Shown: positions 3,204 through 59,066 of the stretch, one piece after another
Layout: the number at the start of each line of letters is the position of its first letter
Numbering within the stretch: position 1 is the stretch's first letter
Source: Ehretia macrophylla
Lineage: Eukaryota > Streptophyta > Magnoliopsida > Boraginales > Ehretiaceae
Length of the DNA stretch: 64,000 nucleotides
Direction: 5' to 3'
NCBI GenBank assembly: GCA_037974665.1
Contig: CM075783.1
Coordinates: 20,182,762 to 20,246,761, forward strand
Made by a program: the position numbers and the translations under genes
The notes under the pieces: generated by a model
Databases searched by the model: none
The model's input: the letters and a program-made list of their open reading frames with translations, nothing else
What the model was told of the DNA's origin: nothing

Positions 3204-4333
3204 TCGGAGGAAGTTGGATTCCGTGACATTACGTTATCCTCGGGCGCGAACAAGTATTATGAGCAATTGGCTTAGGCTCTGTCTGGTCTAGCTGTAAAAT
3301 TTCAGCTTTTAAGCTGTAGTTAACAATTATGGAGGGATAAATTTGAGAAAAAAAAAGTTTCTTGCATTATGTAAAACAGTTTCGCAAAAGTCTTTTTTGA
3401 AAAGCTCCAATTTGGAGCTTATCATTTTTTAGATTTTTTCAACTTTAGCTTTTACTTAAAAGCACTTTTAAAAATGAGTCAAACAAGTTTTTTCAGCTTC
3501 TAAACTCACAGAAAGTGCTTTTGAGTATCTAAAAGATAGGCCAAACAGAGCCTTAGTCTTGACAAGAAGCTAATCAAAACACCACAACCTTTAGCAATTC
3601 GACAATTTGGAATCATCATAGCTAGATTTCGTAGATTTATAGAGATGGAAATTACGGAAAGGGTGAGGAGGTTGTGATCGAGTTTATTATGTGGCAATAA
3701 TTCAACTATGGAAGGAAAGAGATCAGTACAAGAAGAAGAAGAAAAAGAAAGCAAAGGTGAGCTAATTGGTAAGTACTTCATTACGGGAAATAAGGTAGGA
3801 AAGGCCAAAGAAAGCAAAGACGATCTAATTGATAAGTTACGCAATTTCACCCTCCAAGATCTTGGGTAAAACGAGAATAATGGAAAGGAAGAAGGAAGCA
3901 GAGATAAGCTTATTCATACATTATACCATCTCTATTTCCGACTGTGCAAGGAAGAAGAAAAAGCAAAGGGGGAGCAAACGAATAAGTACCAAATTGCCTT
4001 GTGTTTGCATCAAGTCTTACGCTTGCTGCAAAAAAAGGGAAAAAGAAAGGAAGAAGAAAAAGAGATGGGAAAGGAACTAGAAGAAATGAAAAAGAGGTAA
4101 CAAAAGATGTGCAAATGATTAGATTGTATTGTCTAATCTTTGGTTTGCTTTCGCTGAAAGAAGGAAGCAAGGAAGTGAAAATAGACATACAGCAAAATAA
4201 AGAAATAACGGAAGTAGAAGAAATTCATGAGAAAGAGTTGGCAAAGGATGCTCAAACTGTAAGACTTTGCCGTCTTATATTAGGCCAGCTTTTGTTTAAA
4301 AAAGGAAAGGAAAAAGAAATAAAAGAGGAATAG
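3204..4333 (+). pseudogene. Partial pseudogene copy 1 of the membrane-protein family (tail subfamily)
   Basis: This corresponds to residue ~311 onward of the 550-residue protein at 15143. It begins at the Lys-Leu-Asp-Ser-Val-Thr-Leu-Arg-Tyr-Pro segment that follows the last membrane span and runs through the whole Lys/Glu-rich tail. The N-terminal two thirds are missing, and a Copia remnant sits where they should be. A 278-bp MITE interrupts the copy at 3275-3552. There are in-frame stops at 3675 (TGA) and 3867 (TAA), and a frame change near 4085 where an A-run is one base shorter than in the 15-kb copy. The last ~330 bases are open and encode two amphipathic segments (IRLYCLIFGLLSL and VRLCRLILGQLLF). 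This C-terminal end is longer than in the intact gene. It is clearly non-functional as a full protein; transcription is unknown. Confidence 0.85.
3275..3552. mobile_element. Harbinger-type MITE (family M1), 278 bp
   Basis: The terminal inverted repeats are GGCTCTGTCTGGTCTA and its near complement ending CAAACAGAGCC. The element is flanked by TTA on both sides (3272-3274 and 3553-3555), the 3-bp target duplication of PIF/Harbinger elements. The empty site is visible in the 42-kb pseudogene, which reads GGCTTAGTCTTG without interruption. Non-autonomous, no coding capacity. Confidence 0.88.
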
Positions 4334-4665
4334 GAAAAAAGAAAAGAAACAGAGGAAATGTTAGAATATGTAGATACATAGTTTATTGTAGCTTGATAGA
4401 GTTAAGGATATGCTTGTATTATGTCTCATATAAGGCACTCGTTGTATCTTCTTTATTGTCTCTCTTTCTTTTCTCAGTAAAATGGTCAACATAATCTTTC
4501 TCTCATTCATGGCTTCATTTCTTCAACTTAAAAATATTATTAGTAAATATTAAAGATATAATGAAAGTGAAATCAAGAATATTAACTTAAGCCCGCCATT
4601 CACCAGATTTTTAAACACTTACATAATGGGGAGACATAAAAAGTTTATCTTGTACATCCTGTAAC
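4334..4665. other. 3' flank of pseudogene copy 1
   Basis: Non-coding. The stretch from about 4376 (TTTATTGTAGC, then CACTCGTTGTATC, then TTCTTTTCTCAGTAA) matches the region after the intact gene (16970-17110). The part from 4525 (CAACTTAAAAATATTATTAG) also matches 14253 and 44239. It is therefore duplicated 3' sequence of the gene unit. It ends at the LINE poly(A) tail. Confidence 0.7.
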
Positions 4666-6722
4666 TTTTTTTTTTTTGCCAAGTAAACAAGTATATTCAT
4701 TCCGAATCAACAATCATTAACTAAGTACAAAAGGATTGTTCACTACCTAAACTAGCAAAAACTCAATATTTCACTTTTTACAGATTTTTTTATTCATATC
4801 ATTGTTACTAACTCTATGTTGAAGGTGAATTTTTTGTCTAACAATAGCCACACTTTGCTCAAAAAGTTGTTCCTTAACATCTCTACCATGCAATCTATTG
4901 TTCGTTTTCGTCCAGATATTATAAACAATAGAACCTACAAGAAGTCTCACCAATACTACTTGAAGACTTTTACCCTAACCGAAACAATTACTCCACTATA
5001 CAATATTATCACAGTTCAAAATCTGTCTATCAATTAAACACAAACTCAGGCTCTTCTTCCAAATCCTCGCACACATACTGCATTGAAAAAATAAGTGATC
5101 CCTATCCTACACAACCAAGCAGCAAAATTCACATAAACCATTTGTATTCAGTCCTTAAGAAAGCATTATCCATTTAGTAGGGAGGTGATCCATAATTGCA
5201 ACCCAGAGGATAAAACAATACTTCTGAATACAAAATTTATCCCAAACAAGAAAACACTACGACATAGTAGAATTTCTACTCCTATTAACATCCCAAGCAG
5301 AAGACATAGAATACATACCATTTGATTCAGGTCCCCGAAGAAATCTATCATCATTTTGAGGTTGAGGCATGAGGTTATTAAGATTGCTGAAGATTTCCAC
5401 CATCCTTTGATCCCCAACATCCCAGCACTATTTGCTACTAGATATGAACCTGGACACTCTGTCATTCCAACTAGCAGCAATATCATTTTGTTGAACAATG
5501 TGGAAATCACTAGTCAAACAACCAAAAGGATGCCAAGAGTCGTGCAAAAAGAAAATAGAGTTACCATTACCGACCTTGCAATCCACAAGCAATCGAACTT
5601 CATCCCTCACCTTCATCACCTTTCTCTAGGCCCAAGATGAACTTTTCATAACCTTTGCCACCCAAATAGAGTGACCTTTAAGTAAGTTCCTGTCAACCCA
5701 TTGTCCCCAAATAGAATCCTTTTTTGAGACGATATTCCATATGTGTTTGAACATGGCTGCTTTGTTAATCTCAATCAACCTCTGAAAGCCCAAACTACCT
5801 TTACTGTACGGCTTATACACATCTGCCCTTGCAACTTTGGCTCCGACTCCATTACTATCCTTGCATTTCTACAAGGAGACACATTTACTCTCAATAACTT
5901 TCATAATGCTTTTGGGAATAACGAAGAGACTCGCCTAAAAATATTGAATATTTAACAACACCGATTTGTTCAAAACAAACGTCCCAAAAAAGACAGCCAT
6001 TTATTGACCCAATGATCAATTCTACTAGTAATCTTTTCCACAAGATCATTACAAGAGTTAACAAAATCTTCTAGCAGATAAAGGAAAGCCCAAATACTTG
6101 AATGGAAGATCACTAGATTTAAAGTTCATGATCCCAAGTAATTGTTCCATGAGAGTATTTCTGCATCCCCCAAAATACATAACTCTTTTCATTGTTAATA
6201 TGAAGAGTTGAAAGCATAAAAAAGATGTCAAGAGCATATTTAATAGCTGACACCGAGTGGGATCAACATTCGAAAAGATCATAATATCATTCTCAAAATT
6301 CAGGTGATTGAGCTTTGTTTTAGAACATTTCAGATGAAATGAAAAGTAATTCCACTGAGCAATTTTGTTCAACAGTTGAGACAACACCTTCATTGTCAAA
6401 GTAAATAGGTAGAGGGACAAACGGTCCCCTTGCCGAATACCCCTTTTTCTTTCAAAATAACTTTCGAGTGAACCATTGATGGAAATTGAGAATCTAGGAG
6501 TAGTAATACATGTATGAACCCATTGAATGAATCTTCCTAGATAATTCAAAGCAGCCATAGTTTTCAAGATAAAATCCCATTGAACCGAATCATAGGCTTT
6601 TTGCAAATCCACTTTAAGAAGGCACCATGATAGAATATATTTCTTGCCATAACCTTTAACTAACTCTTGACACAAAAGAATATTATCTAACATCTGTCTC
6701 CCCGAAATAAAGACATTTTGAT
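4666..6722 (-). mobile_element. LINE, 3' portion (reverse transcriptase to poly(A))
   Basis: Minus-strand non-LTR retrotransposon. The region 6058-6720 encodes the middle and end of the reverse transcriptase: QNVFISGRQ, a KAYDSV catalytic-region motif and RGIRQGD, then FENDIMIFS where functional elements usually have F/YADD. About 4771-5820 encodes decayed zf-RVT-like C-terminal sequence, including VYNIWTKTNNRLHGR. A T-run at 4666-4677 is the poly(A) tail seen from the + strand. The other part of the same LINE lies at 11935-12640, beyond a Copia element inserted into it. Many stops and frame changes; inactive. Confidence 0.85.
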
Positions 6723-6725
6723 TCT

Positions 6726-9700
6726 TGGAAAAGAAGAAAAGAAGGCAAAGTGAAAAAAAAAAGAAGAAAAAGTAAAATGATGATGCAGGGGGAAAAAATA
6801 GAAAAATATTATTTGCATAGTAATAAAATGAGCCTATAAATAGAGGCTCATTTACACTAACAAAATCATCCCAAAAATAAAGAGAAAACATTGTGAGTTT
6901 TCCTGAGTTTCTTTCTTTTTCTATTGTTCTTTTAGTGAGAGTTTAGTTTATCATATTATTAGAGAGAGTGATATAGTACTCTCCTTATATTAGAGAGAAT
7001 GTGTTGTACAATAATCTTACATCATAGTGAAAATCTTCCTTTATTTGCCTGTGATTTTTTCCTCGATTTATTTGAGGGTTTTTTACGTAAAATCTCGTGT
7101 CTCTACTTTCTCTGTTCTCATTCATATTTTAGTGTGTTATACTGCTTGTCACATATCATTCCGCTACGCTGATACCTAACAGTGGTATTAAAGACACTGG
7201 TTATGGGTCACTAGTATACATACAGGGTTACTGTTCACGATTACTATTCACATATTCAGTATAGTACTATTCACATATACGGTCATGTTACTATTCTCGT
7301 ATATAGTTCTAGTACTATTCACGTGTATGATACTATTCACATATACGGTACTATTCATAGTGAAATAGTGGGAGCTGGTTCAAGTTGAAAAACAGATCGT
7401 CGTTAACACTATGACGCCAAAATTTGAAATCGAGAAATTCAACGGGAGCAAATTTTTCTTTTGAAAATTGAAGATGAAGGCAATCTTGAGAAAGGAGAAT
7501 TGCTTGGCAGTAATCAGAGACAGACCAGCGGAGGTGACATATGCCGATAAGTGGATAGAAATGGATAACAATGCTATGGCTAATTTGCATCTGGCATTGG
7601 CAGATTCGATACTGTCAAGCGTAGAGGAAAAGAAGTCAACAAAGAAAATTTGGGATGCACTAACCAAACTGTACGAGGTCAAGTCACTTCACAACAAGAT
7701 TTTCTTGAATAGAAAACTGTATACTCTTCGAATGAGTGAATCCACTTCGGTAACTGATCATATCAATACCTTAAATATATTATTTTCTCAACTAACTGTG
7801 TTGGGACAGAAAATAGCAGAGCTTGAACGTGTAAAGATTCTACTTCAAAGTCTACCTGATCGTATGATCAACTCATCATTAGTTACACTAATAATGTTAT
7901 TTCAGAATCTGTTACTTTTGATAATGTTGCAGCTACTATTCTGGAAGAGGAAACTAGGCACAAAAGTAAAGAAGACAGAGTTGAAAGTTCACAGCAAGCA
8001 GAGGTACTACCAATGGTGAGAGATAGATCAATAGAATGTGGCTCGAGTGGGAACAACAACAATGGTAGATTAAAGTCTAGGAGTAGAAAGAATATCAAAT
8101 GCTACAATTGTGGCAAGAAAAGGCATGTCAAGAAGGATTGTTGGAGATGTGATAAATTCTCAGGGATGTGTTGCGACTATACCTGATGATGGAGATATTT
8201 TATACAGCGAAGCAGAAACTGTATCAGAAGGCAGAAATGAGCTCATTGATGCTTGGATAATGGATTCGGGAGCAACATGACATATGACTTCTCGTAGAGA
8301 ATGGTTCCACACATATGAACCTACCTCTGGGGGATCTGTGTACATGGGTAATGATCATGCCTTGGAGATTGCTGGCATCGGTGCTGTCAAGATAAAAATG
8401 TATGATGGTACCATTCGCACCATTCAAGGAGTACGACATGTGAATGGCTTGAAGAAGAACTTATTGTCCATTGGGCAATTGGATGACCTTGGCTGCAAGA
8501 CACAGATCGACGGAGGGATCATGAAGGTCATCAAAGGAGCGCTTGTAGTGATAAAGGTAGAAAAGATAACGGTAAATCTATATATGCTTTTAGGAGATAC
8601 ATTGCAGGAGGCAGATGTATCAGTTGCATCAGCCGAACAAGAAGAATCAACTATAATGTGGCATCGTAGATTAGGCCATATGACAGAACGAGGCTTAAAG
8701 ATTCTCGCTGAACATAATCTCTTACTAGGGCTCAAGACGGTAAACTTACCTTTCTATGAGCACTGTGTTACTAGTAAGCAGCATAGATTGAAATTTGGTA
8801 GATCTACAGCCAGAAGCAAACACATTCTAGACTTGATCCATTCAGACATTTGGCAATCACCGGTTTTATCCCTAAGAGGAGTAAAATATTTTGTATCATT
8901 TATTGATGATTACTCTAGGAGATTGTGAGTGTATCCAATCAAGAACAAGTCAGATGTGTTTCCAGTATTCAAAACATTCAAAGTGCTTGTGGAACTTGAA
9001 TCCAAAAAAAAGATCAAGTGTCTGAGGACGGACAACAGGGGAGAATACACTGACGGGAATTTTTTAACGTTTTGCAAACGAGAAGGCATTCAGAGGCAGT
9101 TCACTGTTGCACACACATCTCAGCAAAATGATGTGGTAGAACGGATGAACAAAACTCTTCTTGAAAGAATAAGAGCTATGTTGGAAACTGCAGGTCTAGC
9201 CAAATCATTTTGGGCAGAAGTAGCCAGAACTGCCTGTTACGTGATAAACCAGTCACCATCAACTGTAATTGAGTTGAAGACCCCAATGGAAATGTGGACC
9301 GAAAAACCCACAAATTATTCTACCTTGCACGTATTTGGATGTCTGACATATATGACGTATGGTTCTCAAGAAAGAACAAAGCTGGATCCAAAGTCCAAGA
9401 AATGCATATTCTTGAGATATGCTGATGGCATTAAGGGGTATCGCTTATGGGATCCTACAGCCCACAAGATTATCATAGTAGAGATGTGATATTTGCAGAA
9501 AACAAACTGCAAAGTGAATATGACAACAACACTGCAAAGAAGACTACTACAGTACAAATCGAAGATAACCCAAGAAAAGAAAATGCTTCTTCTGAAGCAG
9601 TACTGGAGCACGAGGAACAAGAAGCAGATGAGACTAAGGTTACAAATGTTCGACGTTCATCGCATTAAACATCAACACCTCTTTGGCACTCAGATTATGT

Positions 9701-11934: not shown

Positions 11935-12640
11935 AGTAGACTTGATCTTGTTGGCCAAGATTTTAGAGATGCATTTATAAATAGAGTTGCAACACGAGAT
12001 ACGCCTAAAGTATTGGATTCTAGTAGGACTATCCAACTTAGGCACCAGAGAAATAGATGTTGCATTGACCTCTCCAAGGAGTCTATTAGATATGAAGAAG
12101 GACTTAACAACAAACACCACATTATTCCCGAAAATACTCCACGCCTTTTGATAAAAGTGGGGAGTCAAACCATCTCGAGTAGAACTCTTATCACAGCAAA
12201 GAGAAAAAAGTGTCTTTAATTACTTGGTCAGTAACTTGAGTCACCAATTGTTCAGCATCATCTGCAGAAATGGACTTCTCAAGAATTTTAGAAAGATCAT
12301 GCACAGAGAAAGTCCCACCAGTGTTGCCACCACTACCCCACACATCTTTGTAATAATTAACAATTGCTTCCCGAGTCTCTTGCTCATTTTCAGTCCAAGC
12401 TCCATTCGAATCAGCAATGCGAACAATATTATTACGAGAAATGCAACCTTTAATAGCCTTATGGAAAAAACCAAAATTAACATTCCCTTTATCTAGCCAA
12501 TTAAGTCTAGATTTCTGGTGCAAAATACTTTCTTCAGCCTTAACATTAAACTCAAGCAAAGAAGCCAGTCTTTTCTCCTCCTGCATAACATGACCAGGAC
12601 AATTAAGATCACAATCGATGTTAGTAAAATCTATCTACTA
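11935..12640 (-). mobile_element. LINE, upstream portion (linker and reverse-transcriptase start)
   Basis: This continues the minus-strand LINE of 4666-6722. It encodes the region between endonuclease and reverse transcriptase (KSRLNWLDKGNVNFGFFHK) and the start of the reverse transcriptase (SLVPKLDSPTRIQYFRRISC, then KILANKIKSTL). It ends where the next LINE motif (NQNVFISG) resumes at 6720, which shows that the Copia element was inserted here. No endonuclease is seen, so the copy is 5'-truncated. AAAAACTTTATATTGT (12641-12656) resembles AAAAAGTTTATCTTGT (4638-4653) and may be a decayed target duplication. Confidence 0.8.
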
Positions 12641-12656
12641 AAAAACTTTATATTGT

Positions 12657-13228
12657 TGAAAACTTATATGTTATTTATAAAATTATGTATCTAAATATCA
12701 TGATGATCATCATAACGAGTGTATCCTCAAAATAAATATTCCATTATTGAGAACAATCACCTTCAAACAAATTTAGATATATACTTTAATTGGAAAATAA
12801 CAATAATACAAACAAGCTAAGAAACCTATCCAATATTATAGTGAGCAATCAATTGTATCATCCCACATATCTTTGGGTAAGTTAGTTATATGCTAGTGAT
12901 TTTACATCTATTCCTAAGCATGATTTATTACTGTCATTGTGAGTAATCTATTTGTAATTGCCACAATTTATCTTTGGATAAAGTGTTACATGCTAGTGAT
13001 TCACTCTTGATATTCCCAAACATGCACAAACACATTAATAATTATGTTATTCTACTGGGAGTAATTGAGTGCATCATCACTCTTGATATTCCAAAAAGGC
13101 ACCTTAAAAAGGTAAAACTAACTTTGATACTTAATTAGATACAATCTATTCCAACTTAGCTAAATCACCATATATACATACATATACATATATATATATA
13201 TACACACACATATATATATATGTATATG

Positions 13229-13269
<41 letters not shown>

Positions 13270-14250
13270 TTGTCGGAACTAAATCAGCATCCAAAACAGC
13301 AACTAAATCTATGTATCACCATATCTTATTAACCCAATAAAATAAAGAAAGTATTAAAAGAAATTCAACTTTCTTGAATGCCAGTAAATTTTCCAAGTAA
13401 GCAATTTATTTATCTCAAGCAATCATTTTATTACAAAATGTATTTGTTACCTTTTAGGTGGTGGTGTATGTTTTCTTGCTTACCTGTACTCTCTTTAAAA
13501 TATAAACTTCTATGTATGGACATGCATTAGGAATCAATGCATTAACAATTAATTAAGAAGTTCTATTATTTAGAGTTGAAGTAATGACATGTTTAATGAA
13601 TGGAGACTTAAAAGTTCATGCCATGTCATCAATCAGCGTTCTTGTTTCCGTGTTGATTTTTTTATTTCCTTTCTTCCATTTCTTTTTGTCCTTTCCTTAT
13701 AAACCAATTTTCTTAAATGAAATTTTTGTTGGATTTGCAGTCAACGACGCCTTCCTATACGAGATAATATTATATTTCATCTTTCCCTTGTTCTTTATAT
13801 AGGGATTATGGAATCTTTATAGTTGTAAGTTAGTGTGAGATTGTTAAATATGGACTATCGACAATAGAATTATAGTTACCTACGCTATTGCCATCTTGTC
13901 AAAGAAACCTCCACGAATTGGAGATGTAAATTAATACGAGTGTGCATAAACCGAACCAAAATTTATAATATAACCAAATCGATCAGTAATATTCATTAAA
14001 AGAAATCAATACAATGAATAACTTAATGAATTATTTTATTTAAAATATTTCCTTAGTGCAATAACATGACATCACTTCTTGAAATTCGTTAATCATGCTT
14101 CTTAGGATTATGAAAAACATATAGGGTTTAGGTGTATTTCAACGAAAATAAAACACACATGAATAATACCAATTACCTTATTGATATTAGTACAACTTAT
14201 TGTTCTTATTGATGGGATATGACTTTCAATAGAAAAAGGTACCTTCTATG
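12657..14250. other. AT-rich intergenic stretch, no gene seen
   Basis: No supported coding region. It contains a TA/CA microsatellite and loosely repeated motifs (ATGCTAGTGATT near 12891 and 12991; CACTCTTGATATTCC near 13003 and 13078). A hydrophobic 72-codon frame at 13584-13802 has no support. Confidence 0.5.
13170..13265. repeat. TA/CA/TG microsatellite
   Basis: Alternating TATACATA, CACACA and a long TA run. Simple sequence, probably variable in length. Confidence 0.9.
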
Positions 14251-15142
14251 TCTTTCAACTTAAAAATACTATTAGCAAATCTTAAAAATATAGTGAGAGT
14301 AAAATCAAGAAGATTAACTTAATCCCATTATTCTCCAGATTTTTATAAAATAAATTAAATTGTAGACATATAAAAGTTCATCTAGTATTATAAAATCACA
14401 CTGCTAAAGAAAATGAATGATATTTACCTATTTGCTACCATCTCTCATACGAAAAGGCAAGAACCAGGGCGTTTGGAAAGAGGAAAGAAAGAGTTACGGA
14501 ACTTATTATATTGCATTTACACTCAACAACACAATGACTATTTATTTGGGTAATGAATATTAGTCAATCTCATGTAAGATTAGTAAGAATACGGCACGAG
14601 AAGTCGTCATAGTACTCCCCTACAATTTTAGCTGACTTTAATCTATTTATTTGGGGTCCTTTAAATACTTTGGTCTAGATGTGTGCTTCTTACTGTGAGT
14701 GTGAAAGATTCCAAAATTAATTCTCGTAGTATACTCTTTAATGTAGTTGTACGATTTAAACTTCTTTTCACTAAAAAAAGAAAGGCCTGTACAAACAATA
14801 TTACTATGACTCATACAGAGTTGGGCCCTTTGTCCTGTATGTGATCTTCATCGCTCACTGGACGTTCTCAAACAAGCATTTTTTGGTGGTCATTTTCACG
14901 CTGAAAAAAATAACTCTTACCGGCACTACTGCGAAATTTCCTGTAAAACTCTACGTCTTCGTCTTTACCGCCTATCTTGATTAAAAAAACAAAAATAAGT
15001 AAAAAGTCTATAAACCGTGTCTGCTGTCCTTGCCATTTACTAAGCTATTAAAAAGAAGCCCTTCCACAAAAATCAACAATATCTCACTCGCCAAGATTTC
15101 TAGGTTCTAGTTACCCTGATTCTCTTCCACGTTGTCCTGATC
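14250..15142 (+). promoter_or_regulatory. Conserved 5' block of the intact membrane-protein gene
   Basis: The first part (14253-14340) matches the 3' flank of other units (4525 and 44239). From about 14460 it matches the 5' regions of the copies at 1-2, 41-42 and 49-50 kb. Strongly conserved pieces shared with 41545-42056 are TCTCAAACAAGCA (14869), ATAACTCTTACC (14909), TATAAACCG (15009), the CTGCTGTC segment (15021), and AACAATATCTCACTC just upstream of the ATG. Conservation here supports this as promoter and 5' UTR of the gene at 15143. Confidence 0.65.
15009..15014 (+). promoter_or_regulatory. Probable TATA box
   Basis: TATAAA, 134 bases upstream of the start codon, embedded in a segment conserved at 41898-41903 upstream of the 42-kb pseudogene. 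It predicts a transcription start near 15040 and a 5' leader of about 100 bases. A second AT-rich motif, GCTATTAAAAAG near 15043, is also conserved and is an alternative. Confidence 0.55.
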
Positions 15143-16795
15143 ATGGAATTCTCGTCCCTTTGGTACTTCTCTTTATGTTCCATTATCAGTCAGGTATTTT
15201 TACTAATTGCACTCCTTGCTTCAGACAGGGTCAAGACTCTATTTCCTGAAGACATTTGGGATTTTTTGAAGGCTTTTATATATGCCCAAGCAGGCTTTTC
15301 TTATGTTTATGCCTTCTTTGTCCTACCTATGAAAGAGCCTGATCTAACCATCGGAAAATTTTCACATGAAGTCATAGGCTTCATTGCAAATGTTGTATGT
15401 GTATTAGTAGCACTCATGTATTTTCTCTTGTGTTTCGGGTACCAGCAGTTGCCTATTTCTGACATAGTTACTTTATCATTCCTTACGCTTTTTACGGTAC
15501 ACGTGTGCTTTCACTACAATTATATCCGCTATATGGAAGGTAAAGAGATGGGAAACATCTTGATTGGACTTGGAGGCCCTTTTTTATTGTACCCCACTCA
15601 TACTCTTTGCTATGCTTTATTTACAACTTCGTTTTTCTCAGTTGCATACTTGGCTTTTCGTCAAGACCCGCGTGAACTTGAGGAACTGGAAGTAATTTTT
15701 TCATCTTTTTCTTTTTCCATCGTTGTGCCATTAACCGAAGTTATATATCCCTTTAATCAAAGATTACGACGATTTTGGTTACATTCACTTGAAAAATGCA
15801 AGGACAATATAAACATGATTGGAAACCTTCTTGGCCTGTTGGGTTACGTTTTTGGTCAATACTGGCTCCAAGAAAAGTCAATTCCTCTTTTGGTGATGTT
15901 CTCTTCCTTCGCCATTCATTGGTTAGCTAACCTCGCCCTGACCCAATCTCCTACTGACTTTGGAATTCTCAACTTTTTAATTGGTATCATCCTGGATTCT
16001 GCAATCAGTCTTTATGGGCTCCGCATATTCACCTGGATTGTCTTAGCTTGCTGTTTCATCATCGTGGTCTTGCGGAGGAAATTGGATTCCGTGACATTGC
16101 GCTATCCTCGGCCGCGAACAAGTACTATGAGCAATTGGGTTAGGGTTGAAAAGAAGATACACAAAACACCATATCCTTTAACAAGACAAATAGGAATCAT
16201 CATGGCTAGATTTTGCAGATCTATAATGGAAAAGAAAAGGGGGAGGAGGTTGTGGTCGAGTTTATTATGTGCCGTTAACTATTTTTGTTTTCTTGGTCGA
16301 GCCGACAATTCAAGTATGGAAGAAAAGAGAGAACAAGAAAAAGAAAGCAAAGATGAGCTCATTGGTAAGTTCATTACGGAAAATAAGGCAGTAAAGGACA
16401 AAGAAAGCAAAGACGATCTAATTGATAAGTTACACAAGTTCACCCTCCAACAGCTTGGGCAAAAAGAGAATGGGAAGGAAGAAGGAAGCAGAGATGAGCT
16501 TATTCATATATTATACCATCTCTATTTCCGACTGTGCAAGGAAGAAGAAAAAGGAAAGGGAGAACAGACGACGAATAAGTACCAAATTGCCTTGTGTTTG
16601 TATCAAGTCTTATGTTTGTTGCACAAAAAGGAAAAAGGAAAGGAAAAAGAAAAAGAGAAAGGAAAGGAAGTAGAAGAAAATGAAAAAGAGGTAACAGAAG
16701 AAGCTCAAATTATTAGATTATATCGTCTAATCTTTGGTATGCTTTCGCTGGAAGAACGAAGCAAGGAAGTGAAAAATAGACATAGAGCAAAATAA
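15143..16795 (+). CDS. Uncharacterised polytopic membrane protein with Lys/Glu-rich tail (550 aa)
   Basis: Single-exon frame of 550 residues; I do not recognise the family. Approximate membrane segments by hydrophobicity: 8-27, 45-63, 77-99, 106-126, 137-171, 183-204, 224-240, 247-266, 273-292 and 296-311. A short conserved linker follows (DSVTLRYPRPRTSTMSNW, 315-332). Then comes a cytosol-like basic region and an extreme Lys/Glu tail from ~391. The tail has a repeated ESKDELI-type motif at 401, 421 and 448, and amphipathic stretches at 452-465, 480-494 and 521-537. The start is supported because MEFSSLWY is conserved at the ATG of the copies at 42057 and 50156. Same-strand relatives flank it on both sides, and it is the only uninterrupted member. 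The stop lies just after an A-run that is one base longer than in copy 1. The bases up to 16926 continue a conserved tail in another frame, so the protein may be slightly shortened. Function, partner and location are unknown; an integral membrane role is inferred. Confidence 0.75.
   Translation: MEFSSLWYFSLCSIISQVFLLIALLASDRVKTLFPEDIWDFLKAFIYAQAGFSYVYAFFVLPMKEPDLTIGKFSHEVIGFIANVVCVLVALMYFLLCFGYQQLPISDIVTLSFLTLFTVHVCFHYNYIRYMEGKEMGNILIGLGGPFLLYPTHTLCYALFTTSFFSVAYLAFRQDPRELEELEVIFSSFSFSIVVPLTEVIYPFNQRLRRFWLHSLEKCKDNINMIGNLLGLLGYVFGQYWLQEKSIPLLVMFSSFAIHWLANLALTQSPTDFGILNFLIGIILDSAISLYGLRIFTWIVLACCFIIVVLRRKLDSVTLRYPRPRTSTMSNWVRVEKKIHKTPYPLTRQIGIIMARFCRSIMEKKRGRRLWSSLLCAVNYFCFLGRADNSSMEEKREQEKESKDELIGKFITENKAVKDKESKDDLIDKLHKFTLQQLGQKENGKEEGSRDELIHILYHLYFRLCKEEEKGKGEQTTNKYQIALCLYQVLCLLHKKEKGKEKEKEKGKEVEENEKEVTEEAQIIRLYRLIFGMLSLEERSKEVKNRHRAK
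16336..16500 (+). repeat. Degenerate 20-codon repeat in the protein tail
   Basis: AAGAAAGCAAAGAYGA recurs with a 60-base offset (16341 and 16401) and again, more diverged, near 16480 (GAAGCAGAGATGAGCT). At protein level the motif is (E/G)S(K/R)D(E/D)LI. The same repeats occur in the 3-kb and 42-kb copies, so the expansion predates the duplications. Confidence 0.7.
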
Positions 16796-17564
16796 AGAAA
16801 TAAAGGAAGTAGAAGAAATTCACGAGAAAGAGTTGGCAAAGGAAGCTCAAATTGTAAGACTTTGCCGTCTTATCTTAGGCCAGCTTTTGCTAAAAAAAGG
16901 AAAGTCGAAAGAAATAAAAGATGAATAGGAAACACAAAGGAAGTGTTAGAATGTGTAGATACAGAGTTTATTGTAGCATAATTGAGTTAGGGAAATGCTT
17001 GGAATATGCTTGTATTAATTAGGGTATTCATATAAGCCACTCGTTGTATCTTTTTCATTCTCTTTCTTTCTTTTCTCAGTAATTTAATCAACATAATCTG
17101 TTTTTTTCTCATTCATATCTTCAATCGTTGATATCGACATGGTATGAAAGGTTAGTAGTCTGTGTCATTATCATCTTATCATTCTTTTCGCAGTATTATA
17201 ATCAGCATAATCTCTTTTTCTTTCATTCATAGCCTCAATCCTTTATTTTAACATGGTATGAAAGGTACCGTTTGCCATCTCACTTCCACATCAGCCAAAC
17301 TAGTGTCTCTTGGTTTTAGGGCAATTTTCTTCCACATCCAACCTGTTCCTTCTTATTCATTTGTCGCATTAGTTTTTTTCCAAATTCAGCCTTTAAGATA
17401 GAAGTTAGGCTTCTATACGTATACGGCCCTCTAATACAAAAAGTGAGGCTCATACACATGAAACCTACTTCCTATTTCACGTCTACACACGACATCCGTA
17501 AAGAAGCAAAATCTTTACGATACCTTTTTTACTCACTTTTCATTCATGATGCGTATATATATTA
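16796..17564 (+). other. 3' flank of the intact gene
   Basis: Bases 16796-16926 encode, out of frame with the gene, the same tail segment seen at the end of copy 1 (VRLCRLILGQLLL) and finish at a TAG, so this is residual coding sequence. Further on, a ~130-base imperfect tandem pair holds TTTTCTCAGTAATTTAATCA / TTTTCGCAGTATTATAATCA and ATGGTATGAAAGGT twice. This region probably contains the 3' UTR; no definite poly(A) signal could be chosen. 17300-17564 shows no further gene. Confidence 0.5.
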
Positions 17565-17772
17565 AGTTCATTTTTTTTTTCTTATGAACATCCTTTTGAG
17601 AATATATATTAATGGAATTAAACAATATTATACAAGTAATGTACTCGAACAACTGCCAAGAGTTAGGTGCATAGTCGTGTAACGATCTGTTGTAGGTTGT
17701 GTGTCAATAAATAATTGCCCCCTCTAATCATTTATTGAAGAGTGCAAGAATATTTTATCAAGCCATGATGGC

Positions 17773-41903: not shown

Positions 41904-42056
41904 CCGCGTCTGCTGTCAATGCCATTTTCTGAGCTATTAAAACGAGGCCCTTCGATCACCAAATCAACAATATCTCACTCACCTCGATAATTTCTAAGTT
42001 TTAATTACACTTTTTACCCCGATTCTCTTCCATATTTTGCTCACATTGTTCTGATC

Positions 42057-48490: not shown

Positions 48491-48495
48491 ATTTA

Positions 48496-50155: not shown

Positions 50156-51204
50156 ATGGAATTTTCATCGCTTTGGTACCTCTCCTTTTGGTCCATCATC
50201 AATCAGGTATCTGTACTAATCTTATTTTTGGCTTCAAATAAGGCCGTCATCGTCACCCCACTTCTAGAGATGATTAGGGTTCTTATTATTGAGTTGCTTT
50301 CACCTATTCATGCAAGCTTTTCATCATTTTATGCCTTCTTTCTATGACCAATGATAGAGCCGGACATAATTACCAATCCAGATATTTCACTTGAGCTTCT
50401 TCGAGTCCTTGTAAAGCTTGGTCTGGTAATGATCGTATTAGAAAATCACTTCATTTGGTATCAGGTTTTCCGGCACCCTACTCAGTTCGACGTCGGACCC
50501 GCATTGCCAGCAATTCCAGGGATCCTCTATTTCTATTACTCCCTCTTCACACACTTTATAAAAAGTATAGAGATGGGAGACTTACTGACTGGATTTGTAG
50601 GCCCTTTCGTCGTGTACCCTTCTCATTCTCTTTGTTTTGCTTTATCTACAGTTTCTCTTTTCTCAATTGTATACTTGGCTTCTCGTCAAGGTCTATCTGA
50701 AGCTATGGAAATACCTTTTTTTTTGGCTTTTCCATTGTATTTTTCGTAAGTGCAGTGTACATTTGCCAGTTATATACTAAAGGAACCCGGTCATGTATAG
50801 GTGAAAACTCTAATGGAAAGATATTAATAATTCAAATCCCTTTAGTGTTGTTGGGTGGTCTTCTAGCTCACTACTCCATCCAAGAAAAGTCCGTTTCTCT
50901 TCTGTTGGTGCTCTCCTCAGGTGCCAGTTATTGCCTAGCTAACCGTGCCATGACACAACCCGCTACTGAGTTGGGAATTTTCAGTTTTTTTATTGGTGCT
51001 ATTTTGGATTGTGCACTAAGTCTTTATGGGCTCAGAAAATTCACCTGGATTGCCTTTGTTTATTGTGTTGTCCTTGGTCTCGTGCGATGGAAGTTGAAGT
51101 CGGTGACACTGCGTTATCCTCCGGACAGAACAACTATTCTGAGGAATTGGGTAAGTCTTGAAAATGAGATAATCTCGAGGGATGGGGGGATAGAATTATT
51201 TTAA
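50156..51204 (+). pseudogene. Near-full pseudogene of the membrane-protein family (short-tail subfamily)
   Basis: Begins MEFSSLWYLSFWSIINQVSV at a position equivalent to the intact gene and is colinear with its whole membrane domain. It ends shortly after the linker (TLRYPPDRTTILRNWVSLE) with no long Lys/Glu tail. There is one in-frame TGA at codon 64 (50345-50347) and one frame change near the nine-base T-run at 50716-50724. Otherwise the frames are open and well conserved, so the inactivation looks recent. Unlike the 42-kb copy, its downstream sequence retains only a stub of Lys/Glu codons near 51260-51290, interrupted by a SINE. Whether it is transcribed, or whether the stop differs between individuals, cannot be told from the sequence. 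Confidence 0.85.
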
Positions 51205-51295
51205 TTGTATCCCTTGTACATTAATTATATGCGGCTAAAGTTAAATCTGGAAAAGAAGGCAGTAAAGGAGGAAGAAAACAAAGACAAGCTGTCAA

Positions 51296-52826: not shown

Positions 52827-55800
52827 TGAAGGATTTGAAAATATTTTCGTTATATTCATCAATCAGTATAAAGTACATTATATAGGCAACATATGTGTGG
52901 ACTTGTATAAATCTACACAAATCTATCTAGATACTATACAGATAAAGATTACAACATAAACTTTTAAATTCAAACGCGGAATGCCTTATCACGCCCCCTA
53001 AAGCGAAACTGGATCACGCACAGTAAGCTTGCAACAAAGCATAGTGAAACGCTTAACGGAAAAACCTTTAGTCATGATGTCGGCCAACTGGTCAACAGTA
53101 GAAACAAATTTGACTTGAAGTTGATTAGAGGCAACTTTTTTCCGCACAAAATGAACATCAATTTCAATATGTTTGGTGCGTGCATGGTAAACATGATTAG
53201 CTGTCAAATATGTCGCGCCAATATTGTCACACCACAAAGTAGGTGTAGAGCCAAGAGAAACATGCAGTTCTGAAAGAAGGGACTGAAGCCAACACAATTC
53301 AGCTGTAGCAAACACGATAGCCCTATACTCGGCCTCAGTGCTGGAGTGAGCTGTAGTAGTTTGTTTCTTCGCTGATCAGGAAATAAGATTGGATCCAAGA
53401 AAAATACAATAGCCATGAGTACTTCTCTGATCATCTGGACACCCAGCCCAATCTGAATCAGAATAAACATGAAGAGCGAAGCCAAAAGAAGGGGTGAGGT
53501 GCAAACCGTATGCTATAGTGCCTTTAAGATACCTCAAAATTCGTTTAACCGCAGTCCAATGAAGTTTAGTTGGTTGATGCATGAACTGATACACCTTATT
53601 AACAGCCAAAGCTATATCAGGACGCGTGAGAGTTAGATACTGTAGAGTACCAACAATACTCTTGTAAAGAGTCGGGTCAGAGAACGGCTCACCCATATGA
53701 CGAGATAATTGTTGATTGGGAGCAATAGGTGAAGAAACAAACTTAGCACCATCAAGCTTAGCTCGGTCAAGCAATGCAGATATATATTTTTGTTGACTCA
53801 ATAATATCCCCTGGAACAATATGTAACCTGAACACCCAGAAAAAATTAGAGTTGCCCAAGATCCTTTAAGGCAAATTGACGATTGAGAACCACAGTAATA
53901 GACTCAATAGTTGATGAGCAACTGCCAGTAATGATGATATTATCGACATACACTAAAAGAAACACATGTACTGCACCGCAAACATATATAAATAACGAGG
54001 AGTCAGACTTGGTGGCAAGAAATCCAAGATGCAGTAGAAAAGTACTTAGCCGAGAAAACCAAGCTCGTGGAGCCTGGTTTAGACCATAAAGTGCGGTACG
54101 AAGTTTACACACGTGGTTAGGATACGATGGATGAACTAAACCTGTAGGTTGAGCCATGTACACATCTTCACGAAGATGGTCATGAAGAAACGCATTGTTT
54201 ACATCCAATTGCTCGTAAGGACCACCCTTTGGATACAGCTATAGAGAGAACAACTCGAATCGTCGTAGGCTTGCCAACTGAGCTGAATGTTTTTGAGTAA
54301 TCCAAGCCTTCTTCTTGACTATACCCCTTAGCAACCAACCGAACTTTATATCGCTCAATCGACCCATCAGATTTCGTCTTGACCCGAAAAACCCATTTAC
54401 ACCTAATCACATTAACACCAACAGGTTTTTGAACTAAATCCCAAGTAGCATTGTGCAACAAAGCATTGTATTCAGTTGTCATCGCATCCCTCCAGTGAGA
54501 AAACTTTTGTGCTTGAGAAAAAGAAGTTGGTTCGACTGGTGAATCAACTTGTGCATGTAAGACCACAAAGTCGGACCAATTCTTTGGCGTTAGCGTATTA
54601 TCTTTCGAGCGTGTGGTCATGGAATGAGAAGAAACAGATGGACCAGAAGCCAATGCAGACACAGACGCAGACGCAGACCTAGAAAAAGCGGATACAAACT
54701 CTGATAATGATGGGTGAAGAGATACTTGGTATGGGGAAGACACACGAGACTACTGGGACAGAGAATTCGAACTTGGAATATCAAAGGAAGGAACAGAGGA
54801 CAACGACACACTACTGGACGCGGGCAAATCTGGACGTGAGGATAAAGATCTAGTAGGTGAAAAGGAGAGTGAAGTTGGCTGTGGTGAGAAACGTAGGCCT
54901 ACAATACGAAAAGGTGCGGAGTGAAAGGCAGGCATAAGGTGAACAACTGGAGAGGATAGCCCATGTGATGGCGCAGGGCACACTGGAGAGTGAGGAATAG
55001 ACATGCGAGCTAGAGTGTTCGAGGGAAGCGGCGAAATTGGACAAGAGATATTGGACATTAGTAGAGTGGGGTCCGCGCTATGGTGAGGTAAAGAAGGTGT
55101 CAAAATATTCACAGATGTAGAACTTGGTAAAAGTTGATCTGGTATTGATGTAGAAAGTGATGAAGTAGGGGCCACCCGTGGGTTGACCATGGCATTGTTA
55201 GGTGAGGGAATAACATGAGAAACAGAAGGTGAAAGATTACTCAATGGCAAGGGATCCACACGATTTGATGTGTCTGGTAAGAGATTATATGGTAATGGAG
55301 TTTGAGCAACTGGGGGGAGGGGTCCACGGATAGAGAAAACACGCTGGAAAATGGAGATAGTTCAGACACATGTGCGCGTGTGGTTGTTGGCGCCACAGTA
55401 ACTTGTACTTGTGGGGCCACGGCATTTAATGGTGATTGAGAATATGGAATAATAGGAAAAACAGCACGTGGATGAGTGTGTACTTGAGTGGAATTTAGAG
55501 ATGAGGATAGCCGCGACGAGAGAGAAGTTTGCTTAGTACGCGACAGATCACGAAACGAAAAATCAGTTTCATCAAAAATCACATGTCTGGAGATATAGAC
55601 ACGATCGACATCTGGTGAATAGCATCTATAACCCTTGTGGTCATCACTATACCCCAGAAAAATGCAAAGAGCTGACTTGGGACTGAGTTTGTCCTGTTTA
55701 TAAGCACCCAAGTATAGAAAAAAGTGAGAACCAAAAACTCGAAGGAAAGAATAATCAGGTGGTTGATTATAGAGAAGGAGAAAATGAGATTTATTATTTA

Positions 55801-58213
55801 GGACCGGCATAGGGAGATGATTAATGAGAAAAACATAAGTAGAGAAAGCTTCAAGGCAAAATTTTTTAGGCATGAAAGATCGAAACATAAGAGTAGTGCC
55901 CATTTCAATGATATGTCTAATTTTACGTTCGGCAAGACCATTTTGTTCTGGTGTATGAGGACAACTAATACGAAATTGAATTCCATTTTGAGCAATAAAT
56001 TTAGCAAATTGTCCTTGTGTAAGCTCTCACATACCATCACATTGGAAATATTTAATGCGTGAAGTAAACATAGTTTCAACGAGAGATTTAAATTGAACAA
56101 AACAAGAAAAAGCATCACTTTTATTTTTGAGAGAATACAACCACGTGTAGCGACTATAGTCATCTACAAACAATACAAAATATTTAAAATCAAAACATGA
56201 GAGCACTGGGGCTGGACCCCAAATATCACAATGCACTATTGCTAAAGGAAACTAAGTTTTGTGACATGAAGAACTAAACGGTAGTCTATGACTTTTGCCC
56301 AACATACAGTAGTACAGACCTTTTTTATTTTAAGAAAATTAGAAAAATCTAAAAAATTCTGAGACAGCAAGGAAGACAGGACGCTCTTGGAAGGATGCCC
56401 AAGTCTTTCACGCCAGAGAGCAGTCGGCGTACAAGAAGCAGCAAAGTCAGAAGGAGGACTCGACGCAGGAACTGGAAGACTGTAAAGACTGGATTCAACG
56501 GGGCCTTGAAGGAGAGGAATCCCTATGCGGAGGTCCTTAACAACACATTTAGAATGAAAGAATTCAAGTGAGACTTGATTATCCCGAGTAAATTTTGAAA
56601 CAGATAGCAAATTGCGGGTAATATGAGGAACATGTAAGATATGCTGAAGAGAAAAGGAACGACGAGAAGAAGAGAATGAAGAATTACCAATATGATGAAT
56701 CGGAAGCGACTTACCATCACCAACAAAGACTTGATCAGATCCAGTGTACGGCTGAAGGTGCTGAATTAACGTAGAGTCATTAGTCATGTGGGAGGTGGCA
56801 CCAGAGTCAGGAATCCACGGTTGAGACGTAGAAGTGGGCAGAAGTGGAGGAAGAGGAGACTGTTGTTGATGGTAGTCGGCAAAGTGAGATTGAGAACTAG
56901 TATTGGTGGAAGGTGCATAACGATAGCGACAACGAGATACTGAATGACCGTGCTTTTGACGTATCTGACACTTGCCCCTGTACCCACCGGACTTGTTGGA
57001 TTGATTTTTGTTAGAATTGGTGGAGAGATGAGAACTACTAGTGGAGGTCTTGCTGGAAGAATTATTGAGGTGGGGCCGAGAAGAATTATTTGTTGCTATC
57101 ATGACTTGTCCAGAGTTAGCAGAGGTATGATTTTGAGAAAATAGAGCCGTAGTGGAGTGGTGCTCAGGAGATGAGATTTCATCAGAGTCAAGTAAAACGC
57201 GATGTTCATGAATGAGTAATTTCGCACGAAGCTGTGCAAATGAAGGAGAGTGCTCGAGGTTCTCAATAAAAGTAACAAAAGGCCTGTAGGATTTAGGGAG
57301 ACCTTCTAAAATGATGATAACCAAATCAGAATCAGATACTGGATGCCCAATAGCAGCAAGGGATGAAGATAAGAGACGAATCTCATGGAGATATTTAGAA
57401 ATTGTTAGAGAATTTTTTTTCATGTTGCGAAGTTGAGAGGGAAGAAGAGAGCGACAAGCAAGGGATTGGTGTTGGAAAGATTGCTCAAGAGACTTCCATA
57501 ACTCATGAGCACTGGTAAAGTCAAGGGCTTGATGAACGAAAGATTCAAAGAGAGTGGCTGTGAGACATGCTTTGACAAAGCTGTTATATTTTTGCCATTC
57601 AGCGGTAGAAATTGTAGAGGTAGATTGCGAGGTTGTGGACTGGGAAGATGTAGACTGGGAATCAGACTTGTCAGAAACTTTGGAAGGAGGAAGAACAATG
57701 CCATTAGCGTAGCCTAGCAAGTCATTGAACGTTAAAAAATCAACCATTTGAGTTTTCCAACTCAAATAGTTGGTGTTGTCCAACGTCAATGTCACGTAGG
57801 CCCTGACATTATAGGTGGGGAGGGAAAACATCGAGGAGGAAGCCATTAGAAAATGTGGAACAACAAGATGGGAGAAAAGCTGAAAGGAGTAGATGAAACA
57901 GATGTCACGTCACTGATTTGTCTGATACGTCTGTTGCTTTTTTTTTTCTTTTTTTTTTTTGTGCTACGGTATGAAATACTGAAGTAAAGGGCAGAAGCAT
58001 ATAGTGGGAATAAAAGGATCGAGACGCTAGTCTTAAACTTCTGATACCATGAAGGATTTGAGAATATTTTCATTATATTCATGAATCAGTATAAAGGACA
58101 TTATATAGGCAACGTATGTGTGGATTTGTATAAATCTACACAAAGCTATCTAGAAACAATACAGATAAAGATTACAACATAACTTTTAAATTCAAACGCG
58201 GAATGCCTTATCA
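52827..58213 (-). mobile_element. Ty1/Copia element (Ale/Retrofit-like) with short LTRs and target duplication
   Basis: Minus-strand element with short LTRs (52827-52991 and 58050-58213) and the target duplication ATAAG on both sides. The primer-binding site TGGTATCAGAAG adjoins the right LTR; the purine tract TTTAGGGGGCG adjoins the left. Parts in element order: gag about 57846-56900 with a zinc-knuckle-like region, protease with DSGATSHMT near 56810, integrase about 56460-55300, reverse transcriptase about 54640-53850, RNase H about 53800-53000. The first ~530 codons (gag, protease and beyond) are still open. Very short LTRs and gag sequence suggest the Ale/Retrofit lineage. A fossil with about half a dozen breaks. 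The LTRs differ at about ten positions by eye, so it is a few million years old or less. Confidence 0.92.
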
Positions 58214-58218
58214 ATAAG

Positions 58219-58615
58219 ACCTTATATCCTCCAAAGCCTACCGAATGGCAAGAAGTCACTAAGAAAGTTCCTTCAAAACCTCTTTTTACCTCAACATCCC
58301 AACCTCAGTTAGCACATCAAAATATCAATTTGAAGTATTGTGGAATGCCAATGAGAATGTTGAAGAAAAACCCGAAGCTCCCGTATTTTATCCCATGGTT
58401 GAATCCCTGCAAATTCTCAAGACCTCGAGCGGCCTGAAGCCCCTCAAATGGTTAACTCCACTGACTCTCATGTTTCCTTTTCCCATGACAAGGTTTTTTA
58501 ATCCCTTCTCAATCCTAAACTTCTTCCTTTATACCCAAAAAAGGCTCCCTCAAGTCCAAACATGGATTACCACGATCCAATCATGACCCCCCAAAATCCA
58601 AATCCAATACCCCCA
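58219..58615 (+). other. Fragment of unknown coding origin (LINE-like?)
   Basis: Codon-like sequence: 58243 onward reads WQEVTKKVPSKP in one frame, and 58338-58586 gives an 82-codon frame. The N-Q-x-F-E-V-L-like stretch near 58325 recalls the linker after the endonuclease-proximal region of plant LINE proteins, but the match is weak. It sits directly between the Copia target site and the family fragment at 58620. Confidence 0.3.
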
Positions 58616-58619
58616 ATCC

Positions 58620-59066
58620 AAATCTGTTTCTCTTCTGGTGCTGCTCTCCTCCTTTGCCGTTTATTGTCTAGCTAATCTCGCCATGACCCAACCTCGTACT
58701 GATTTCGGAATTTTCAACTTCACTATTGGTTCTATCATGGATTGTGCAATTGGTCTCTTTAGGCTTGGGAAATTCACTTGGATTGTCTTCGGTTGTTGTG
58801 TCTTCATATTCCTCTTGCAATAGAAGTTGAATACCGTGATACTACCTTATACTCCGGCACGAGCAAGTGAAATGAGCAACTGGTAAAGTCTAGAAGAGCA
58901 GTTAGCTAATGAGGAATTTTTGGGGGAGTTACATAAACTTTTCTATGTACAGGAAGGAGGAAACTAAGGGTTGATGAGTTGAGCTTGTTCTTAGGTCTCT
59001 CGTTATGCGAGGCAGGAAAGGAAGAAGAAAGTAAAGACAAGCTTATTGAGAAGAACTAATATTGTA
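58620..59066 (+). pseudogene. Partial pseudogene copy of the membrane-protein family (short-tail subfamily)
   Basis: Starts abruptly in membrane segment eight (SVSLLVLLSS, 58623) and is readable through AVYCLANLAMTQPRTDFGIF and CAIGLFRLGKFTWIVFGCC. It then has an in-frame stop at 58821-58823, where the other copies have Arg or Trp before KL. The linker is altered (LPYTPARASEMSNW) and a further stop follows. A Glu/Lys-coding stub near 59018-59060 ends at AAGAACTAA. Closest to the 50-kb copy. The N-terminal half is absent and unidentified sequence sits upstream. Non-functional. Confidence 0.8.

Follow-up and report, generated by a model that had tools for sequence, protein, structure and literature searches.

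Family Copies in the Window

The window, that is, the whole stretch of 64,000 nucleotides that we analysed, covers C20:20182762-20246761 in the 1.58-Gb genome (20 contigs) of Ehretia macrophylla. Six copies of one gene family were found in it by tblastn, using the protein of the copy at 15143 and 15 subfamily representatives (E 1e-5). They are located at 3202-4366, 15143-16925, 24968-25519, 42057-43812, 50156-51291 and 58383-59053, always on the + strand, with no match on the minus strand, which bears out the six same-strand copies described in an earlier, sequence-only reading of this DNA. The main stretches of the five decayed copies (about 100-370 residues, leaving aside one piece of 26 residues and one 32% match between repeats) are 67-94% identical to the nearest subfamily, with E-values from 5e-37 to 1e-139, so their relation to the family is not due to chance. 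The search with the 15 representatives showed that the copies belong to different subfamilies (L047, L036, L038, L016 and L011 types).

The open copy is a single + strand frame of 550 codons (15143-16795; ORF list and hydropathy). It consists of a membrane domain (residues 1-345) with ten predicted spans, followed by a Lys/Glu-rich tail of helical repeats. Average hydropathy across 24 non-redundant members backs the previously suggested number of about ten spans. A short A run that differs in length by one base puts the final tail repeat (about 16790-16925, + strand; tblastn and sibling comparison) out of frame. A 95% identical sibling of this copy lies at C20:20050842. In the sibling L009, likewise listed as 95% identical, the final repeat is in frame and the protein reaches 594 aa; the repeat is also readable in the copy at 3202. 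Thus the claim that only the copy at 15143 is intact is right about its long open frame but not about its end, where the tail stops early.

The decayed copies, all on the + strand, were delimited by tblastn. The L011-type copy (3202-4366) keeps only the end of span 10 and, after an interruption, the Lys/Glu-rich tail, in which there are stops and one frameshift. The fragment at 24968-25519 best matches L036 (74% at residues 136-243, positions 25187-25486). The L016-type copy (42057-43812) is broken within its membrane domain by an in-frame stop and by frameshifts, and its tail contains a further stop; it is 85% and 83% identical to L016 in two membrane-domain pieces and 67% identical elsewhere. 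The tailless L047-type copy (50156-51201) is 94% identical at residues 1-196 and carries one stop and a frameshift, and the L038-type fragment (58383-59053) is 88% identical at residues 244-355 (58608-58943).

Each copy had been thought to have duplicated 5' and 3' flanks. Compared by blastn (1e-8) with the reference region 12001-18500, this is true in full only of the pair 15143/42057, in which the 5' flank of the latter (41305-42056, + strand) contains two pieces homologous to the sequence at 14575-15142 that precedes the open copy. The other flanks are partial: the copy at 3202 keeps its 3' flank together with displaced upstream pieces, those at 24968 and 58482 keep one 3' piece, and the copy at 50156 gave no flank match.

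The copies sit among Copia-type elements. A second gene family duplicated along the array was looked for in ORFs of the window and in the flanks of the C4 copies; of ten window ORFs scanned for domains, nine contained retrotransposon domains and one had no match. No RNA families or tRNAs were found in the window, the tRNA scan having been run with the bacterial code.

Extent of the Array

The window is a slice of a several-megabase plant array that is far larger than the window itself. The union of four match lists, to which only new-looking places from the three later lists were added by eye, gave at least 158 family loci on C20. This number is an undercount, because three of the six window copies (3202, 24968 and 58482) are absent from the union. 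Among the matches listed, 152 of the C20 loci lie at 18.69-21.90 Mb and 6 at 26-27 Mb, three further copies lie at one place on C4, and no other contig has a match.

The membrane domain (from residue 10 or earlier to residue 330 or later) is spanned by 72 of the 119 listed matches of the first genome search. No internal stop was present in 52 of these 72, near-identical block duplicates being counted separately. Therefore, one intact copy with five decayed ones is an accurate but local picture, and the mostly dead six-copy array proposed earlier proved to be a small part of an array with dozens of open members, in which tailed and tailless subfamilies occur side by side. This shows that what is read as a decaying array may be a quiet stretch within a highly active one. 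The earlier view that copies are born and die and that they evolve fast is supported.

Searches for Related Proteins

Searches of Pfam, NCBIfam and PDB sequences (with a single protein, and with a profile for PDB) gave no credible match to the family, in agreement with the earlier statement that no named relative was recognised. Eight Pfam families appeared with E-values no higher than 1 (the lowest was 0.028), each matching only one or two of 20 members, two Pfam matches fell on the tail (E 0.35 and 8.5), and one NCBIfam model was found at E 5.5; we took all of these as chance. Matches to a repeat-element protein or a transporter would have spoken against the earlier reading. No transporter family was matched in the Pfam and PDB searches, and the 20 members contain no credible transposon domain such as gag, integrase or reverse transcriptase. 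No F-box match was obtained in Pfam for family members, and no relatives were found in viral contigs or prokaryote genomes. None of the papers listed from the open-licence literature of PubMed Central concerned the family or its start peptide, and descriptions may exist in print elsewhere. The family is unnamed in the libraries searched, and its proteins appear to be intronless with ten predicted spans.

DUF4220 (PF13968) was the first guess from topology and was rejected. It resembles the family in comprising multi-span membrane proteins of plants whose C-terminal part is long and soluble, as the frames examined also show, and in having partly clustered genes (C13:78.9-79.9 Mb). However, neither the protein nor the 20 members matched it in Pfam, and hhalign of the 20-member family profile with a 6-member DUF4220 profile gave a probability of 0.1 (E 0.62). 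None of its 54 genomic places is on C20 (all 62 candidates scored).

Two types of self-incompatibility locus were also looked for at the array, and no partner gene was found among the places scored. All 125 candidates for RNase T2, the mark of an S-RNase-type locus, were scored; they gave 108 places, which on C20 are confined to 36.29 Mb. DUF247 (PF03140) had no Pfam match in family members, and none of its 103 scored places (778 candidates) is located in C20:18.6-27.2 Mb.

Selection on the Membrane Domain and the Tail

We examined selection in the 60 loci L009-L068 and left out 13 in which the expected start does not open a frame of 335 codons or more. Only open copies were thus analysed (47 of the 60 loci and the window copy), which biases the results towards intact frames. 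After near-identical copies were removed, 24 of 48 sequences were kept in the cross-subfamily set and 14 of 18 in the clade of the window copy. The site models were our own implementation with naive posteriors, and the null simulations contain no recombination.

For the window clade, with 14 of its 18 open members compared over 336 codons free of gaps, model M0 gave ω = 1.47 and model M2a placed 19% of sites at ω = 4.6. The positive-selection models fitted far better than their nulls (2ΔlnL = 89.5 for M2a vs. M1a and 87.8 for M8 vs. M7), and 16 null simulations reached 8.09 at most. With separate trees for each third of the domain, 2ΔlnL was 58.6, 19.9 and 8.0, and ω was as high as 2.85 over residues 1-114. 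Three other clades gave 13.4, 30.7 and 11.2, and the 24 sequences across subfamilies gave 265.

The selected sites are concentrated in three spans, the selected residues falling at 41-49, 75-122 and 180-221. In the 24-sequence set, their posterior means were 0.58 in span 3, 0.53 in span 4 and 0.72 in span 6. Span 2 had a mean of 0.28, and the means of spans 1, 5 and 7-10 stayed at 0.00-0.11. Both this map and the periodicity test rest on the 24-sequence alignment, in whose gappy regions alignment error is likeliest. A helical periodicity as strong as that of residues 76-104 was not reached in any of 2000 permutations; the values were p = 0.042 at residues 103-131 and p = 0.016-0.0175 at 180-212. 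Because the 12 tested ranges overlap and were chosen after the sites had been seen, the periodicity is convincing for span 3 alone; it is strong there, and in spans 4 and 6 it is nominal.

The tail behaves differently. Its median dN/dS was 0.63 (48 pairs), and in the same pairs mean dN and dS were 0.182 and 0.290 for the tail against 0.254 and 0.207 for the membrane domain. The C4 copy gave a median dN/dS of 0.58 over 47 pairs. A lack of purifying selection in relatives had been named as evidence against the earlier reading; we found constraint in both cases, measured between copies of one genome. The DUF4220 control gave ω = 0.23 and 2ΔlnL = 0, although its six genes are deeply diverged, with dS undefined for 11 of the 15 pairs, and do not form an array of young copies. 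These results show that the membrane domain is under strong diversifying selection and the tail under net constraint.

Alternative Explanations

We think it reasonably probable that the array encodes a membrane family for recognition, or for transport coupled with recognition, which is engaged in antagonistic coevolution and has grown by block duplication. In its favour are the size and confinement of the array, the recurrent long spacings between loci, the frames that stay open despite divergence, and the contrast in selection between domains with its controls. Two of the alternatives, a reproductive locus and a transporter family, are special cases of this reading, so their odds overlap with its own.

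The array may be, or may derive from, a self-incompatibility or gamete-recognition locus with membrane proteins that act as atypical receptors, as has been proposed for PrpS, Ipomoea SE and grass DUF247, and we regard this as a modest possibility. It would agree with the diversifying selection found on a membrane protein that lacks known relatives, with the single main chromosomal region and with the open single frames. Those systems have few genes per locus and a linked ligand gene, and PrpS is a single gene, whereas the family here has more than 150 loci; the strong diversification measured in it is between copies. There is also no RNase T2 match in C20:18-27 Mb, and no DUF247 there among the scored matches. 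S-locus F-box (SLF) clusters are also megabase-scale sets of diversifying, mostly intronless genes in one chromosomal region; however, SLF proteins are cytosolic F-box proteins and those studied here are membrane proteins. PMC13033167 describes PrpS (Papaver), SE (Ipomoea) and DUF247 (grasses) as highly polymorphic membrane proteins without known receptor homology in three self-incompatibility systems, PrpS and SE being lineage-specific; it gives grasses two receptor genes per locus, against the far larger number here.

It is also conceivable, at small odds, that the proteins are transporters of varied substrates, such as defence chemicals or peptides for export or sequestration, in which the selected helix faces line the path. 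About ten spans, a conserved core and selected residues within predicted spans, with a helical period at least in span 3, are what such a family might present. However, no transporter family was matched in the Pfam or PDB searches, and the ω of up to 2.85 over residues 1-114 is unusual for transporters.

A selfish gamete-killer family like the wtf drivers of fission yeast, with tailed and tailless paralogues as antidote and poison matched through their spans, seems improbable. According to PMC7032740, wtf genes encode multi-span, repeat-containing proteins and show rapid turnover with gene conversion and decayed copies. The present family parallels them in its multi-span proteins, tail repeats, rapid turnover, decayed copies and likely exchange between copies, and in having both tailed and tailless subfamilies in one array. 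However, wtf genes are fewer (25 of them in the reference strain and up to 38; PMC7032740). They are also fungal and multi-exon, and their killing of gametes by a poison and an antidote, which a single gene makes through two transcripts, is proven experimentally.

Equally improbable is functionless, neutral birth and death, with apparent selection produced by copy exchange and alignment error. Over the 1014 pairs whose dS is greater than 0.1, the median pairwise dN/dS was 0.99 and thus close to 1; the codon positions change to a similar extent, and many copies are decayed. The youngest duplicates have no excess of dN: after five pairs at dS 0 were set aside, the medians were 0.99 (35 pairs, dS up to 0.02), 0.66 (39 pairs, 0.02-0.05) and 0.96 (35 pairs, 0.05-0.1). 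Of 52 pairs compared, only 29 have a dN higher than the divergence of their 5' flanks. The 5' flanks of the window copy and L009 differ by 0.39-0.43 from those of L010-L012, L014 and L015, far above the dS of 0.16-0.19; exchange between copies is therefore likely, and it can inflate site tests of this kind. The youngest duplicates and the signs of exchange also weigh against the main reading. Against neutrality, frames have stayed open: 7.0-11.6 neutral stops were expected in 11 of the 15 pairs examined and none is present, and for the window copy and L011 none of 2000 neutral simulations was stop-free. A constrained tail and hypervariable spans within the same genes also argue against it, as does a signal that persists in separate thirds and clades and is absent in the DUF4220 control.

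Finally, a protein borne by a transposable element is most improbable, for although the copies lie among Copia-type elements and have some flanks in common, the 20 members carry no credible transposon domain, the copies among the matches listed are confined to C20 and one C4 place and not dispersed, and the long recurrent spacings between loci (1.245 Mb in 15 pairs, 147 kb in 13, 50 kb in 11 and 60 kb in 9, where the average bin has 1.7) indicate block duplication.

A Possible Recognition Repertoire

If the array is a coevolving recognition family, its mode of action might be as follows. The conserved core (spans 1, 5 and 7-10) would carry out a constant job in assembly, signalling or transport. 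In tailed subfamilies a tail that we infer to be cytosolic would share this job, with short amphipathic helices in its Lys/Glu-rich linkers. One face of spans 3, 4 and 6, together with neighbouring loops, would touch a changing partner, which may be a molecule from a parasite, a herbivore or a non-self mate, and would thereby be driven to diversify. New variants would arise by duplication of blocks of tens to more than 100 kb, each with several subfamilies, and further ones by exchange between copies and by point changes under positive selection. Failed copies would decay in place, as seen in the window.

More tentatively, this may be a new plant recognition repertoire, with more than 150 loci on one chromosome, a hypervariable face in transmembrane helices 3, 4 and 6, a constant core and, in some subfamilies, a constrained cytosolic tail of helical repeats. 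Plants are known to have large diversifying repertoires of soluble or single-span recognition proteins. If the suggestion is true, the family would be a membrane-embedded counterpart to the NLR and S-locus F-box repertoires. A ten-span repertoire with selection on three membrane helices would mark an unstudied interface, be it with a second membrane protein, with a lipid-soluble ligand or with a molecule that blocks a channel, as well as an unnamed locus, and it predicts, in a testable way, which residues meet the partner.

Copies of the Family in the Window

The 550-codon frame of the copy at 15143 matched six places on the + strand of the window (tblastn). A repeat search with 15 subfamily representatives again matched these six, and the opposite strand gave no match. 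This agrees with the sequence-only reading, which had described six same-strand copies with only 15143 open; that frame is open over its 550 codons. The copies are not six siblings and fall into different subfamilies: on the + strand, the copy at 3202 is nearest to the fetched locus L011, that at 42057 to L016 and that at 50156 to L047 (94% identity over residues 1–196), and those at 24968 and 58608 group with L036 and L038. The duplicated flanks ascribed to every copy are clear on both sides for 42057 but not for the remaining copies. Compared with L009 (C20:20050842), a 95% identical copy, the tail of 15143 ends early: a run of A that differs in length by one base cuts it short and shifts its final repeat into another frame.

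Elsewhere in the window, GC skew is strongly negative at positions 26000–40000, roughly −0.14 to −0.29 per 2 kb; the stretch has zero ORFs of at least 150 aa and contains two direct-repeat pairs. Copia-type retrotransposon fragments with gag, integrase-related and RVT_2 domains lie at 7468–9486, 19855–22908 and 54183–57846, and by eye the elements seem to extend past them on both sides. An RVT_1 reverse transcriptase domain at 6061–6891 (minus strand) probably stems from a non-LTR element.

Protein Architecture

Mean hydropathy of 24 non-redundant members predicted ten membrane spans (residues 9–27, 42–60, 80–98, 105–123, 155–173, 184–202, 223–241, 249–267, 271–289 and 292–310). Positively charged segments face the cytosol under the positive-inside rule, and the net charge of +5.2 in the stretch after span 10 would place the C-terminus there. 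Eighteen positions are invariant among 20 members. The family is still unrecognised, as first proposed, with no credible match in Pfam, NCBIfam or PDB sequences; DUF4220 identity was excluded by profile comparison.

The L009 tail contains five short amphipathic units (starting near 424, 451, 481, 521 and 568), with Lys/Glu-rich linkers between them. In the remaining subfamilies the tails are different or the protein ends near residue 350. A tail was looked for and not found downstream of L029 (on contig C4), L041, L042, L044, L052 and L058, and the L036, L038 and L047 types have only short traces of one. The locus L060 (C20:20626711–20629802, minus strand) encodes 697 aa with a tail ending in short IYRDKL/ICRDKL-like repeats, unlike other subfamilies.

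Size and Layout of the Array

The window occupies C20:20182762–20246761 of a genome with 1,579,978,469 bases in 20 contigs. Searching this genome with the membrane domain, with 116 of 374 candidates scored, gave at least 119 matches, all but one of them (on C4) located on C20. Of the 118 C20 matches listed, 20 lie by eye on the minus strand, and the array is therefore mainly, not entirely, same-strand. Further family queries raised the count to at least 158 C20 loci, taken as the union of starts from several searches with places up to 2.5 kb apart merged (at least 164 under a limit of 1.5 kb and 146 under one of 4 kb); 152 lie at 18.69–21.90 Mb and 6 at 26.1–27.1 Mb. Because this union includes just three of the six window copies, the true number is higher. 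The satellite cluster at 26–27 Mb contains L069 (C20:26914955–26918477), which is open and divergent, with an Asp/Ser/Asn repeat tail. Among the matches listed, C4 has three copies at 21.06–21.08 Mb: an open one of 351 aa, a divergent fragment with 41% identity to it, and a third with 62–72% identity to that fragment. None of the 141 matches listed for one of the further queries (140 of 233 candidates scored) lies on any other contig.

Certain distances between copies turn up repeatedly (15 pairs at 1.245 Mb, 13 at 147 kb, 11 at 50 kb and 9 at 60 kb) against a mean of 1.7 pairs per 300-base bin, and near 18.7–19.1 Mb the same copies reappear at intervals of about 96 kb, apart from a single 115-kb step. 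Thus, the array seems to have grown by duplication of blocks carrying several subfamilies.

Selection on the Membrane Domain

Open copies were picked deliberately for the selection tests, which covered 48 membrane domains, one from the window and 47 from the 60 fetched loci, giving 1128 pairs. For the clade to which the window copy belongs, analysed over 336 codons in 14 of its 18 open members, omega was 1.47 under M0, and M2a put 19% of sites at omega 4.6 (2ΔlnL = 89.5; M8 vs M7, 87.8), against a maximum of 8.09 in 16 null simulations under M1a. The signal stays when each third of the domain has its own tree (residues 1–114, omega 2.85, 2ΔlnL = 58.6; 115–226, 1.39, 19.9; 227–345, 0.94, 8.0). 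Three more clades of 6, 8 and 12 sequences gave 2ΔlnL of 13.4, 30.7 and 11.2, and 24 sequences from all subfamilies gave 265, a set in which alignment error is likelier.

Sequence exchange among copies could inflate these site tests, and the null simulations contained none. Such exchange is likely, because the 5′ flanks of the window copy and L009 differ by 0.39–0.43 from those of L010–L012, L014 and L015 at dS of only 0.16–0.19, and dN exceeds 5′-flank divergence in 29 of 52 pairs. Exchange is less able to explain an omega of 2.85 across an entire segment. Among the youngest duplicates, dN does not exceed dS (median dN/dS 0.99, 0.66 and 0.96 at dS up to 0.02, 0.05 and 0.1).

Overall, pairwise NG86 dN/dS lies near 1, which speaks for neutral drift; medians were 0.98–1.02 at dS 0.2–0.8 and 0.99 over the 1014 pairs at dS > 0.1 (476 above 1), with 1.37 in 52 pairs at dS 0.1–0.2. 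However, drift would hardly have preserved the frames, since 7.0–11.6 stops are expected in 11 of 15 pairs examined, whose frames are nonetheless open; for the window copy and L011, 7.3 are expected and none of 2000 simulations was stop-free.

Location of the Selected Sites

In the 24-sequence model, the mean posterior for omega > 1 was 0.58 in span 3, 0.53 in span 4, 0.72 in span 6, 0.28 in span 2 and 0.00–0.11 in the remaining six; the majority of selected sites in the model of the window copy's clade fall in the same regions. Over residues 76–104 the posterior has a helical period of 3.35, equalled in none of 2000 permutations. Periodicity was weaker at 103–131 (p = 0.042) and 180–212 (p = 0.0175), and absent in ranges over conserved spans (same test, 12 ranges); because the ranges overlap and were chosen after the sites were known, only that at 76–104 is strong.

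The tail had a median dN/dS of 0.63 (48 of 66 pairs, tail dS > 0.05); in the same genes, mean dN and dS were 0.182 and 0.290 for the tail and 0.254 and 0.207 for the membrane domain. Comparison of the open copy on C4 with those of the array gave a median of 0.58 (47 pairs), and six DUF4220 control genes run through the same scripts, deeply diverged rather than young array copies, gave omega 0.23 and 2ΔlnL = 0. Therefore, high omega belongs to part of the membrane domain in the C20 array.

Possible Role of the Family

The core is constant, certain helices are hypervariable, the tail of some subfamilies is constrained, and the array is large, with duplicated blocks and decayed copies. Together these features favour a recognition-type family in antagonistic coevolution, which would account for them better than a transposon protein, a housekeeping transporter or decay under neutrality. 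Its partner may be a parasite, herbivore or mate. Atypical membrane receptors act in self-incompatibility in other plants (PMC13033167), and multi-span gamete killers are known in yeast (PMC7032740). A self-incompatibility role would be less likely here, the odds being lowered because a genome profile search gave no RNase T2 match in the array and the 103 DUF247 matches scored, out of 778 candidates, include none there.

The largest group of those DUF247 matches, 41 of 103 by our count, lies at C10:56.5–59.3 Mb, many of them full length and stop-free; other clusters among them are on C1, C14, C15 and C20:1.4–2.2 Mb. RNase T2 (PF00445) has dense exon matches at C2:13.76–14.30 Mb, almost all on one strand, a candidate expanded defence or self-incompatibility RNase locus, and DUF4220 genes and fragments cluster at C13:78.9–79.9 Mb. 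With such clusters on C10, C2 and C13, the array format is not peculiar to this family; what is distinctive about the array is the unnamed protein and the location of its selection.
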